NCBI GenBank assembly: GCA_009904015.1
Contig: WYEQ01000035.1
Span: 62,001 to 126,000, forward strand
Length of the DNA: 64,000 nt
Reading direction: 5' to 3'
Origin: Desulfurococcales archaeon
GTDB lineage: Archaea > Thermoproteota > Thermoprotei_A > Sulfolobales > Fervidicoccaceae
Part shown: piece after piece, positions 2,087-6,001 of the stretch
How positions within the stretch are numbered: position 1 is the stretch's first letter
Layout of the letters: every line of letters begins with the position of its first letter
Program-made: the position numbers and the translations under genes
Notes under the pieces: model-generated
The model's input: the letters and a program-made list of their open reading frames with translations, nothing else
The model's database searches: none
Told to the model about the DNA's origin: nothing

Positions 2087-2554
2087 TTATTTATAATACT
2101 TCGCTGCATCTTCGATAGCTCTGATTATCTGTAGGTAGCCAGTGCATCTGCAGAGTATGCCGCTGAAGAAGTGCTTAATCTGTTCTCTTGTGGGGTTGGG
2201 GTTGTTCTTGAGGAAGTTGTGAGCAGCGATGACATATGCGGGCGTGCAGAAGCCGCACTGAAACGCGTTGTGCTCTATGAATGCCTTCTGTATTGGGGCT
2301 AGCTTACCTTCTCTGGCTAAGCCAGCGGCCGTCAGTATCTCCGCGCCGTCTGCCTCTACAGCCAATACCATGCATGATTTCACCAGTTTTCCATTCATCT
2401 CAACTGTGCATAGACCGCATTCTCCTTTCCAGCACCCAGCCTTCACGCTTGTTTCTTTCAGTTTGTATCTAATTACATCTAGTAGTGTTTCGTTATCTTC
2501 TACCTCTACTGTTCTTTTTTCTCCATTTAGGGTGAATGTTATCACGCGTGCCAT
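2087..2554 (-). CDS. Molybdenum hydroxylase small subunit, 2x[2Fe-2S] (CoxS-like)
   Basis: A 155-aa iron-sulfur subunit of the xanthine oxidase family. The N-terminal plant-type [2Fe-2S] cluster ligands are in CWKGECGLC plus a later Cys in KLVKSC; the C-terminal cluster ligands are in QCGFCTPAYV and ILCRCTGY. It passes electrons from the molybdenum centre to the FAD subunit. ATG 2554 follows GAGGTGA with a 6-base gap. It is the last gene of the coxL-coxM-coxS order on the minus strand, 2 bases after coxM. Length and cysteine pattern are normal for the family. Confidence 0.93.
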   Translation of the reverse strand: MARVITFTLNGEKRTVEVEDNETLLDVIRYKLKETSVKAGCWKGECGLCTVEMNGKLVKSCMVLAVEADGAEILTAAGLAREGKLAPIQKAFIEHNAFQCGFCTPAYVIAAHNFLKNNPNPTREQIKHFFSGILCRCTGYLQIIRAIEDAAKYYK

Positions 2555-2556
2555 GA

Positions 2557-3447
2557 TTATTCACCTCTGGCTAGTTTTATTAAAAGCTTGTATGTCAGGG
2601 TGGATGCTAGGTATCTCCTATACTCAGCAGAGGCGTAGGGGTCGCTTAGAGGCTCTATTTCCTCCTCTATCTTCTTCGCAGCTAGCTCTGCGGCTTTTTC
2701 GAATGGAATGTCTTGTTTGAATACTTCCTCTGCTGCCTTTGGCCTGAATGGCAGCGTTGTAGCGCTTGTTATGACTATCCTCACATCCCTTTTCTGGGGA
2801 TTGTCAGGGTTTGCCACCAGAGCAGCTACATTGACGTAACCATACTCGAGTCCGGGGTTGAACTTTACGTATCCTGTTCTGGCTCCAGCGGGCGGCTCCT
2901 TGTACAGTATCTCCGTTACGATTTCGTCTGGCTCCAGACTCGTCATCATGGGGCCTAGCACTAATCCTTCCACTGGCAGAACTCTCTCTCCTCTAGTGCT
3001 AACAGCTTTCACTTCAGCCTCAAACAGTATTGCGGGGCCAGGTGCATCCGTGTACGGTAGTCCCTCTAGAATGTTGCCAATAATGGTGGCTCTGTTCCTA
3101 AGTATTGCATCAGCGAGTTCGGATGTAGATTCGTATAGAGCGCAGAATTTCTTCTTGATTTCAGGGTTCTTTTCAAGGTACTGTAAAAGCTCGTTGGCTG
3201 TAACGGTAGCTCCCACCACCAGGCCTTTTCCTGGCATGTACTCTATCTTTTTTAGTTCCTTGATTCCCTTAATGTCGACCAGTATCTTTGCTTCAATCAT
3301 TCTTTCCTTCATGAATCCTAATACTCCTATTCCTCCATTTAGTATCTTTGCTTCACCGGCATTCTCCGCGAGGATTTTGAGAGCTTCTTCTAATGTCTGG
3401 GGTTTTACGTATTTGAACTCTGGTAAAGTGAAATATGGGGCCGACAT
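2557..3447 (-). CDS. Molybdenum hydroxylase FAD-binding subunit (CoxM-like)
   Basis: A 296-aa FAD subunit of an aldehyde oxidoreductase/CO-dehydrogenase-like complex. Family features seen are the start FTLPEFKYVKPQTLEEAL, an ILNGGIGVLGFMKERM segment in the place of the usual AGGT FAD loop, and LRNRATIIGNILEGLPYTDA in the place of RNxATxGGN. Both FAD loops therefore depart a little from consensus. It accepts electrons from the small subunit. ATG follows GGTGA, and only 3 bases separate it from the large-subunit stop, so the three genes form one operon. Confidence 0.9.
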   Translation of the reverse strand: MSAPYFTLPEFKYVKPQTLEEALKILAENAGEAKILNGGIGVLGFMKERMIEAKILVDIKGIKELKKIEYMPGKGLVVGATVTANELLQYLEKNPEIKKKFCALYESTSELADAILRNRATIIGNILEGLPYTDAPGPAILFEAEVKAVSTRGERVLPVEGLVLGPMMTSLEPDEIVTEILYKEPPAGARTGYVKFNPGLEYGYVNVAALVANPDNPQKRDVRIVITSATTLPFRPKAAEEVFKQDIPFEKAAELAAKKIEEEIEPLSDPYASAEYRRYLASTLTYKLLIKLARGE

Positions 3448-3450
3448 TTT

Positions 3451-5886
3451 TTACTCACCTCTCCATTCAAGAAGAGCTTTCCTAGCTTTTTCGAGCAGGT
3501 CTGGTCTTTGTTCCTTTATGGCTCTCCACACTCTTTCTGGATTCATAGGTAACGTTGTGATATTTATTCCGAGAGATCTTCTAAGAGCATTTGCTATTGC
3601 TGGCATGACGGCTATCATTACGTTTTCGCTGAATCCTCTTGCTCCGAAGGGTCCGTCTGCCTGCGGTGTTTCTAGGAAGTATGAGACAATCTCGTCTGGC
3701 GCGTCCTTCATTCTCGCCAGGTAGTAGAAGCTGAAGTTGGGGTTAGCCACTCCTCCTCTCTCGTCATATATTATTTGTTCCCACAGCGCCCTGCTCATAC
3801 CCATGACGAAGCCTCCTATTGACTGCCCCTCAGCTGTTAACGGGTTTATTACCTTGCCTAAGTCGTAGACCTGCACTCCTTTCAGTACTTTTATCTCGCC
3901 TGTTAGGAGGTCGACCTCTATTTCAACACCGCTTGCACCTGGAGTTATGAATACGGTGGCGTGGCCGGGCTCAGTTTCTTTGCCTAGCTCTGGGTTGAGT
4001 GGCAAGGCCTGGCCAGTGTCTGGGTCCAGGTAAGTTGATGTGCCTGGATAATGTACCCCCACCCCAATTATTGGTCCTCCAAATGTCTGGCCATTTGGAT
4101 ATACATATCCCATTACCAGTTCAGTTAATGGTACCTTTAGCCACGGCTCTCCCTTCACGACTACGTGGCCTTCTTTTAGCTCCAACTGGTCTGGAGCTAC
4201 CTTCAGCACCTTGCTTGCAAGATCAAATATCTTTCTTTTAGCATCCTCGACCGCTCTCATCAATGCTTGTCCAACCGTGAACAGGCTTCTGCTGCCAACG
4301 GTCTGCCATGTATAGGGCATCCACTCTGTGCTGTTCATCCATGTTATATGTACTTTCTCGAGTGGAATGTCAAATGCTTCCGCAACTAACATTCTAAATG
4401 CATTGACTGTTCCCTGGCCGTAGTTCCCCGTTGAGACAAGTATGTCAACGCTTGCATCCTCGTTGAACTTTACTATAGCGGCGTCCACCGCGTTTGGCGG
4501 CTGTGATGGGCCCTTAACGCTGTACGCTAGGCCCTTTGCCCTTATTTTCCATGGCTCTTTTGGTTGTTCTGGTGGCTTGTTTATCTCGATTAGCTCAGCT
4601 GCCTTCTTTAATACTCCCTGGTAGTCTCCCTGGTCTGCTCTTAGTGGGGCCCCATAGCCTAGCGTTGAGTGTGGGTCACCTGGTCTTAACAGATTGATGC
4701 TTCTGATTTTGACCGGGTCCATGCCTAGCTCTATTGCTCCCATTTCTATTAGCTGCTCTATCACCCAGTGGTTCTCAGGGAAGCCGAATCCTCTAATAGC
4801 TGTCGTAGGTATCTTGTTGGTGTAGACTGTCACGCTTTCACAGTAAAGGTTAGGTATATCGTAGGCGCCTGAGCAAGCGTAGCCAGCGGTTCTTGCTACG
4901 TTTACGGCGTAGTCAGCGAACGCTCCTCCATCAAATATGAATCGCGCGTAGTAAGCAACTATTCTTCCGTCCTTGGAGAACCCTATCTTGGCTTTAGCTT
5001 TATACTTAGGTGCTATTGGCCAGCTCCTCATCTGCTCCGCTCTGCTCATCATGAGCTTAACTGGCCTGTAGCCAGCCTTCTTGCTAAGCATCGCGGCAAG
5101 CGGCTCAAACAATACTCCTGCTTTTCCTCCGAAGCCTCCTCCAACATAGGGTATTCTCATCTTTATTTTTCCTACCGGTATTCCAAGGCTCATAGCCATT
5201 AAGTATCTTGGCGCAAACGGCGATTGCGCGCTGGTCCAGATCTCGATGTCCCCGTTGTGCTTGTAGTGAGCTATCGCTGCCCACGTCTCCATGTACGCAT
5301 GGTGTATGTTCGGTATACTGAACTCCTGCTCGATGACTAAGTCAGCTTTATCAAACGCGGCTTCACCTTCACCCTTCTTTTGCTTAAATATATTTGCTAT
5401 GTTGGTTCCAGGAATAGGCTTGAAAGCCGGGCTTACCTTGTACTTCGCGAGGTCGGGATGTAGTATTGGTGCGTTTGGCTTCAACGCCTCCTCGGGGTCA
5501 AACACTGGCGGGAGAGGGTCGTACTCAACTTCTATTAAGTCAATGGCTTTCTCAGCTGCTCTCCAGCTCTCAGCTACAACTGCCGCTACCGGGTGTCCTA
5601 CCCATAAAGCCTTATCAATAGCGAGTATGTCTCTATCACCTACATATATACCGATTCTATACGGGAAGTCCTTGCCTGTCGCGACCGTTTTTACTCCTGG
5701 AACCTGCAGGGCTTTGCTGTAGTCGATATTCTTTATGTACGCGTGTGGCTCGTTTGATGTAAGGATCTTCGCATATAGTAATCCGGGAAACTCCATATCG
5801 TGAACGTAGGTCGCTGTTCCGGTTACCTTTTCGTATGCATCAAAAGTAGGTGTAGGCTTACCTATAACTTTGTAATTGCCTCCTAT
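3451..5886 (-). CDS. Molybdenum hydroxylase large subunit (aldehyde oxidoreductase family), probable AUA start
   Basis: Catalytic molybdopterin subunit. From the first ATG (5796) the protein has 781 aa and begins inside a conserved region. The frame stays open for 30 more codons to an ATA at 5886-5884 and adds the typical family start YKVIGKPTPTFDAYEKVTG. GGTGAG lies 5 bases before this ATA, the same signal used by its two operon partners, and no ATG, GTG or TTG exists in the extension. The active-site loop reads TAIRGFGFPE rather than the CSFR of true CO dehydrogenase, and the catalytic Glu lies in GARGFSE. An aldehyde or purine-like substrate is therefore more likely than CO. With the extension it is 811 aa. 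Confidence 0.9.
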   Translation of the reverse strand: MGGNYKVIGKPTPTFDAYEKVTGTATYVHDMEFPGLLYAKILTSNEPHAYIKNIDYSKALQVPGVKTVATGKDFPYRIGIYVGDRDILAIDKALWVGHPVAAVVAESWRAAEKAIDLIEVEYDPLPPVFDPEEALKPNAPILHPDLAKYKVSPAFKPIPGTNIANIFKQKKGEGEAAFDKADLVIEQEFSIPNIHHAYMETWAAIAHYKHNGDIEIWTSAQSPFAPRYLMAMSLGIPVGKIKMRIPYVGGGFGGKAGVLFEPLAAMLSKKAGYRPVKLMMSRAEQMRSWPIAPKYKAKAKIGFSKDGRIVAYYARFIFDGGAFADYAVNVARTAGYACSGAYDIPNLYCESVTVYTNKIPTTAIRGFGFPENHWVIEQLIEMGAIELGMDPVKIRSINLLRPGDPHSTLGYGAPLRADQGDYQGVLKKAAELIEINKPPEQPKEPWKIRAKGLAYSVKGPSQPPNAVDAAIVKFNEDASVDILVSTGNYGQGTVNAFRMLVAEAFDIPLEKVHITWMNSTEWMPYTWQTVGSRSLFTVGQALMRAVEDAKRKIFDLASKVLKVAPDQLELKEGHVVVKGEPWLKVPLTELVMGYVYPNGQTFGGPIIGVGVHYPGTSTYLDPDTGQALPLNPELGKETEPGHATVFITPGASGVEIEVDLLTGEIKVLKGVQVYDLGKVINPLTAEGQSIGGFVMGMSRALWEQIIYDERGGVANPNFSFYYLARMKDAPDEIVSYFLETPQADGPFGARGFSENVMIAVMPAIANALRRSLGINITTLPMNPERVWRAIKEQRPDLLEKARKALLEWRGE

Positions 5887-5891
5887 GTGGG

Positions 5892-5946
5892 CTCACCTTT
5901 TTTTAATTAACAAAAAACATAATTTATTTAGAGGCTATATATACTT
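5892..5946 (-). promoter_or_regulatory. Promoter and ribosome binding site of the molybdenum hydroxylase operon
   Basis: On the minus strand a TATA box (AAGTATATATAG, 5935-5946) is followed about 26 bases later by the expected start of transcription, and then by GGTGAG (5897-5892) just before the ATA codon at 5886. This gives a short leader and supports initiation upstream of the first ATG. Confidence 0.6.
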
Positions 5947-6001
5947 TATTACAAAGTATTATTTATAACGATAAATTAAAATTTATGATTAGATAATGAA
6001 T

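Follow-up and report, generated by a model that had tools for sequence, protein, structure and literature searches.

The bacterial gene infC, which encodes the initiation factor IF3, has an AUU start codon. Starts at AUA are represented in the literature by rare or doubtful bacterial cases (PMC11238559; PMC9094748), and a survey of 36 groups, which reconstructed some 69,000 ancestral starts, reported no natural switch to AUA (PMC5622118). One of the bacterial cases is ralp3 of emm4 group A Streptococcus, in which ATA is found where relatives have ATG (PMC11238559). In archaea, non-AUG initiation with Shine-Dalgarno (SD) leaders is known as well, in the form of GUG and UUG starts (PMC7531240); the relevant passages of this review name AUG, GUG and UUG only, and AUA, AUC, AUU, ACG and CUG are unmentioned in them. 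Our search of the literature on archaeal near-cognate starts, Desulfurococcales and Fervidicoccus revealed no report of the former, and an earlier one may be contained in subscription papers.

The window analyzed here, a stretch of 64,000 nucleotides from the genome of a heat-loving Desulfurococcales archaeon (contig WYEQ01000035.1), encodes a molybdenum hydroxylase whose large-subunit gene resembles ralp3 in having ATA where certain relatives have ATG. Unlike ralp3, which is an isolated bacterial case presumed to be poorly translated, the apparent ATA start of this gene has counterparts elsewhere in the same genome, and that of ribosomal protein P1/L12 is conserved across families.

The molybdenum hydroxylase operon

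The gene encoding the large (molybdopterin-binding) subunit of this three-subunit enzyme is located at 3451..5886 of the minus strand. Its frame is uninterrupted from ATA (5886-5884) to TAA (3451-3453) and comprises 811 codons. The predicted 811 aa product contains, in this order, the Pfam domains PF01315 (Ald_Xan_dh_C), PF02738 (MoCoBD_1) and PF20256 (MoCoBD_2), all above the cut-off, and the match to the first of them, the hammerhead domain, begins at residue 22. Genes of the FAD-binding subunit (2557..3447, minus strand) and of the [2Fe-2S] subunit (2087..2554, minus strand) adjoin the large-subunit gene downstream and have the same direction. NCBIfam matches of both are below the cut-off, those of the FAD-binding subunit being to glyceraldehyde/xanthine dehydrogenase FAD-subunit families. 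By its domain order and the two adjoining genes, the large-subunit gene is that of a xanthine-oxidase-type molybdenum hydroxylase. The domain order and a conserved N-terminal segment are common to this protein and to the large subunits of 4-hydroxybenzoyl-CoA reductase (1rm6) and of xanthine dehydrogenase (XdhA). It differs from enzymes of these types in that it scores under the cut-off of every NCBIfam equivalog (XDH, HBCR, CODH, glyceraldehyde DH; best score 458.5 bits vs. a cut-off of 780).

A TATA-box-like sequence AAAGTATATATAG at 5935..5947 of the minus strand, which matches the consensus, suggests that the transcript may have a short leader. Downstream of the operon, the region 1081-1950 of the window encodes two proteins that resemble parts of a biotin-dependent decarboxylase: one of 122 aa, which is short, proline-rich and membrane-anchor-like, and one of 161 aa, which is biotin-carrier-like.

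Start codon of the large-subunit gene

The start region of the large-subunit gene, on the minus strand, reads TTAATTAAAAAAAGGTGAGCCCACATAGGAGGCAATTACAAAGTTATAGGT. A GGTGA SD motif (5893..5897) is separated by six bases (N6) from ATA (5884..5886), the only codon at this spacing, which differs by one change from ATG and occupies the start position determined by the SD. The first ATG, GTG or TTG in the frame is the ATG of codon 31 (5794..5796), and the 30 codons that precede it (5797..5886) encode the conserved N-terminus IGGNYKVIGKPTPTFDAYEKVTGTATYVHD. The original prediction of GGTGAG, a gap and ATA, followed by a stretch free of standard starts that restores the N-terminus of the family, is borne out in these respects. 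It had also pointed to an in-frame TGA upstream of the ATA. This stop codon is present (5893-5895), but it is a part of the GGTGA motif, and since any start at GGTGA-N6 is preceded by such an in-frame TGA, it lends no independent support. The claim that both partner genes have the same spacing from GGTGA to their ATG holds for the [2Fe-2S] subunit gene, where it is N6 (AGGTGAATAATCATG, 2566-2552), but not for the FAD-binding subunit gene, where it is N7.

The N6 spacing is the modal one in the whole 156-kb contig. Standard starts are present at 10 of the 14 in-frame codons at GGTGA-N6, the ATA of the large-subunit gene being one of the four non-standard codons, while at other spacings they account for 0-5 of 13-28 codons.

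Codons 5-30 of the large-subunit gene align with the N-terminus of the family. In an alignment of 14 homologues, the invariant residues are G9, D16, K20 and D30, with V21, G23 and A25 close to invariance. Chain A of 1rm6, whose structure is known, aligns from residue 7 and has a homologous N-terminal segment. Nucleotide differences from relatives in these 26 codons are concentrated in the third position (in the case of the orthologue L009, they number 8, 7 and 18 at the first, second and third codon position, respectively), which indicates that this stretch has evolved as protein.

Orthologues that are 75-78% identical to the large subunit over residues 4/5-810 start at the equivalent place. 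The comparison with relatives that had been proposed as a check of the ATA codon gave a mixed picture, with ATG in L002 and L003, TTG in L009 (GGTGA-N6) and in L015 and L016 (GGTGA-N5), and GTG in L010 (GGTGA-N5). Since ATA at this gene is not conserved, a lineage-specific change at that base is likely. In a further homologue (L012, G010:C33, minus strand), a CTG start is possible (GAGGTG-N6-CTG-ACT-TTT), with an in-frame GTG three codons upstream. An exact-pattern scan of viral contigs for the sequence gave no match.

The SD motif at N6, the conserved N-terminus and the starts of orthologues together indicate that the ribosome is aimed at the ATA codon, and AUA is very probably the true start of the large-subunit gene.

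Start codon of the P1/L12 gene

The P1/L12 gene of the same genome (L110 / L130, G000:C33:195-527, plus strand) also starts at ATA, behind GGAGGTGA. The context of this start is GGAGGTGAACCGAA-ATA-GAG TAC ATA TAC GCT, the encoded protein being IEYIYASLLLH... as translated codon by codon (MEYIYA... when initiated with methionine), and there is no standard start for 32 codons. Met1 of the solved archaeal P1 (3a1y), which we take to be from Pyrococcus, aligns exactly on the ATA codon.

Among 30 genomes, including the one studied here, the P1/L12 gene has a non-standard start in 13, namely ATA in 11 and ATC in two. At all 13 loci the SD is strong, and a stop codon closes the frame one or two codons before the start, with no standard codon between. 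CTC and ACG at the rpl12 genes of G003 and G011 were dropped, as TTG or GTG is present 1-3 codons upstream, and rpl12 of G036 starts with ATG. We also searched 229 genomes of the class with a degenerate P1/L12 pattern; outside the 30 loci, the assignment to P1 is by the pattern alone. All matched genomes of family f1 have ATA, as do those of f4 and f10, while those of f5 and f13 have ATA or ATC. In family f9, the start is ATA in about 15 genomes, ATC in 17-18 and ATG in 3-4. The genomes of f2, f3, f7, f8 and f11 that were examined have ATG or GTG; families are described as having no near-cognate starts on the basis of rpl12. Genomes assembled into a single contig are represented among those with ATA (G002, G044, G134 and G140) as well as among those with ATC (G025, G133, G131, G138 and G139).

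Near-cognate starts at other genes

In a genome-wide scan, every GGTGA motif and the codon N bases downstream of it were considered, provided that the codon opened a frame of at least 100 codons in which no standard start preceded it and the nearest one downstream was at least five codons away. In the own genome of the large-subunit gene (G000, 931 kb), 12 of the 21 non-standard codons at N6 are near-cognates, vs. 2.7 expected (p = 1.7e-6): ATA in five cases, ACG in three, and ATT and CTG in two each. No excess of near-cognates was found in these 931 kb at N0, N3 or N9; a weak excess at the control spacing N12 (p 0.003-0.03) indicates that the scan carries some noise. In a relative represented by a single contig (G002, 800 kb), near-cognates make up nine of 13 codons at N6 (1.8 expected, p = 7.6e-6; ATA 4, ACG 2, CTG 2, ATT 1), and the excess is confined to this spacing. 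In G025 (400 kb), they make up five of seven (1.2 expected, p = 0.002). As a bare pattern, AGGTGA-N6-ATA shows no excess (11 sites vs. 21 of the reversed control), and only the subset followed by long frames stands out.

The genes identified in these scans include two whose products have homologues of known structure. The catalytic subunit A of the A-ATPase of G002 (L260, C1, about 909515, minus strand) has an apparent ATA start (GGGGGTGAAGAAAA-ATA); it aligns with the solved subunit A from residue 4, and its first standard start is 19 codons in. Most relatives have ATG, GTG or TTG at the equivalent start, which indicates that outside P1 the choice of a near-cognate is not widely conserved, as in the case of the molybdenum hydroxylase gene. 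The TtuA-like tRNA thiolation protein of G025 (C1, block L290-L309, minus strand, offset 35873) has an apparent ATT start after AGAGGTGA; it aligns with 5mko/3vrh from residue 3, and its first standard start is 35 codons in. A frame of 1036 codons in G025 appears to start at CTG. A candidate Xaa-Pro peptidase gene (C20, ATA) is uncertain, as GTG is present nine codons in and the N-terminus is poorly conserved, and several further candidates with a standard start close by were not counted as proven.

Near-cognate starts are almost certainly a real class in this archaeal group, and the most plausible reading of the large-subunit gene is that it belongs to this class as an SD-driven member. The statement of the original prediction that AUA initiation is very rare fails in this lineage, given the ATA starts of P1/L12 and the enrichment of near-cognates in three genomes.

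Alternative explanations of the ATA codon

Three options had been proposed for the ATA codon: a true non-standard start, a recent G-to-A change, or a base error. With ATA and other near-cognate starts recurring in the genome and its relatives, the first is favoured, a lineage-specific base change is itself likely, and an error is less favoured. If the change is real, it could also be the first step of gene decay, the loss of a start codon having left the gene with very low expression. The G002 orthologue (L034, G002:C1:632723-633127) is a C-terminal remnant of 135 residues beside seemingly intact genes of the FAD and FeS partners, which shows that this family can lose the enzyme, and the ATA-start gene of streptococci is suspected by its authors of yielding little protein (PMC11238559). 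Against this stands the integrity of the 811 codons, of the promoter-like sequence, of the SD and of the partner genes. Moreover, P1/L12 of the same genome uses ATA, so this codon alone need not silence a gene, and we regard decay as unlikely.

An error of a base or of the assembly consensus, the true codon being ATG, appears quite unlikely. The genome is a single MAG-like assembly of 37 contigs, 92% complete, and a search of the genus for a second, conspecific genome returned this genome alone; ATA is one substitution away from ATG, which is present in the close relatives L002 and L003. The frame of 811 codons is otherwise intact, however, and ATA starts occur also at P1/L12 of the same genome and in single-contig relatives. 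The enrichment of near-cognate starts and the recurrence of ATA make a true ATA not improbable a priori.

According to another explanation, a one-base frameshift, real or artefactual, conceals a start at the GTG inside GGTGAG, with the protein reading MSPH-GGNYKVIGKP. GTG AGC CCA CAT does precede GGA GGC, and the more distant homologue L011 has MDKPHSGGEYRYIGK, which shows faint similarity. However, the GTG frame reaches TAA after 12 codons, the GTG has no SD of its own (upstream of it is TTAATTAAAAAAA), the same GGTGA serves as SD in the nearest orthologues, L009 and L010, at a spacing of N5-N6, and there is no long homopolymer at the site of the required indel, which makes a frameshift very improbable. 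A start at the internal ATG 5796, the first standard one in the frame and the one that a gene caller would choose, is hardly tenable, as the resulting 781 aa protein would lose the invariant G9, D16, K20 and D30 together with part of the hammerhead domain, no SD motif is present directly upstream, and intact orthologues begin about 30 codons earlier.

Possible mechanism of initiation

If the large-subunit gene starts at AUA, as we favour, the GGTGA motif would place the 30S subunit at the distance preferred in this lineage, N6, and Met-tRNAi (CAU) would be accepted on AUA despite the mismatch in the third position. Provided that this very base was read correctly, the product would be a protein of 811 residues with the normal N-terminus of the family, presumably beginning with methionine. 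In a wider perspective, a minority of SD-led genes of Fervidicoccaceae-like and Desulfurococcaceae-like archaea would start at AUA, AUC, AUU, ACG or CUG, each probably decoded by Met-tRNAi with one mismatch.

The archaeal factor aIF1 favours proofreading when initiation complexes are erroneous (PMC6237735). Loss of this factor does not explain the near-cognate starts, since all 59 genomes examined have SUI1. An initiator tRNA was not recognized among the tRNA hits of G000 or in 800 kb of G002, and may be encoded in the missing parts or have been overlooked; the tRNAs found that carry the anticodon CAT resemble elongator Met and Ile2. The genome pieces examined gave no tRNA with anticodon UAU. 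Editing of A to I could make AUA mimic AUG, but it cannot account for starts at ATC, ATT or CTG.

Implications

A broader reading of these results is that AUA, AUC, AUU, ACG and CUG are regular start codons in a large group of Thermoproteota, comprising Fervidicoccaceae-like, Desulfurococcaceae-like and other archaea, and that the non-AUG start of P1/L12 is kept there by selection. We put this forward tentatively, as a possibility somewhat short of an even chance. As to selection, P1/L12 starts with ATA or ATC in about 32 genomes of f9 and with ATG in 3-4, even though a single step would yield ATG, and this interchange of ATA and ATC, judged from the start codons, hints at selection against AUG at P1.

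Like bacterial infC, the P1/L12 gene belongs to the translation apparatus and has retained a near-cognate start preceded by a strong SD. It differs in that its product is a stalk protein, its codons are AUA and AUC, and its hosts are archaea with aIF1 and not IF3; autoregulation of P1 is only conjectural, and its regulation by the start codon is speculative.

Should near-cognate starts be routine in these archaea, proteins including P1/L12, TtuA and the A-ATPase subunit A are truncated or missed by gene callers that accept only ATG, GTG and TTG. Natural AUA and AUC starts would then also allow a test of how stringently start codons are selected in archaea, a property assigned to aIF1, aIF1A and aIF2. 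A selected non-AUG start of P1, if true, would by analogy with infC fit translational control of the stalk protein or of initiation stringency. The conservation of a non-AUG start in a ribosomal stalk gene raises the question of whether infC-like control may exist in archaea.
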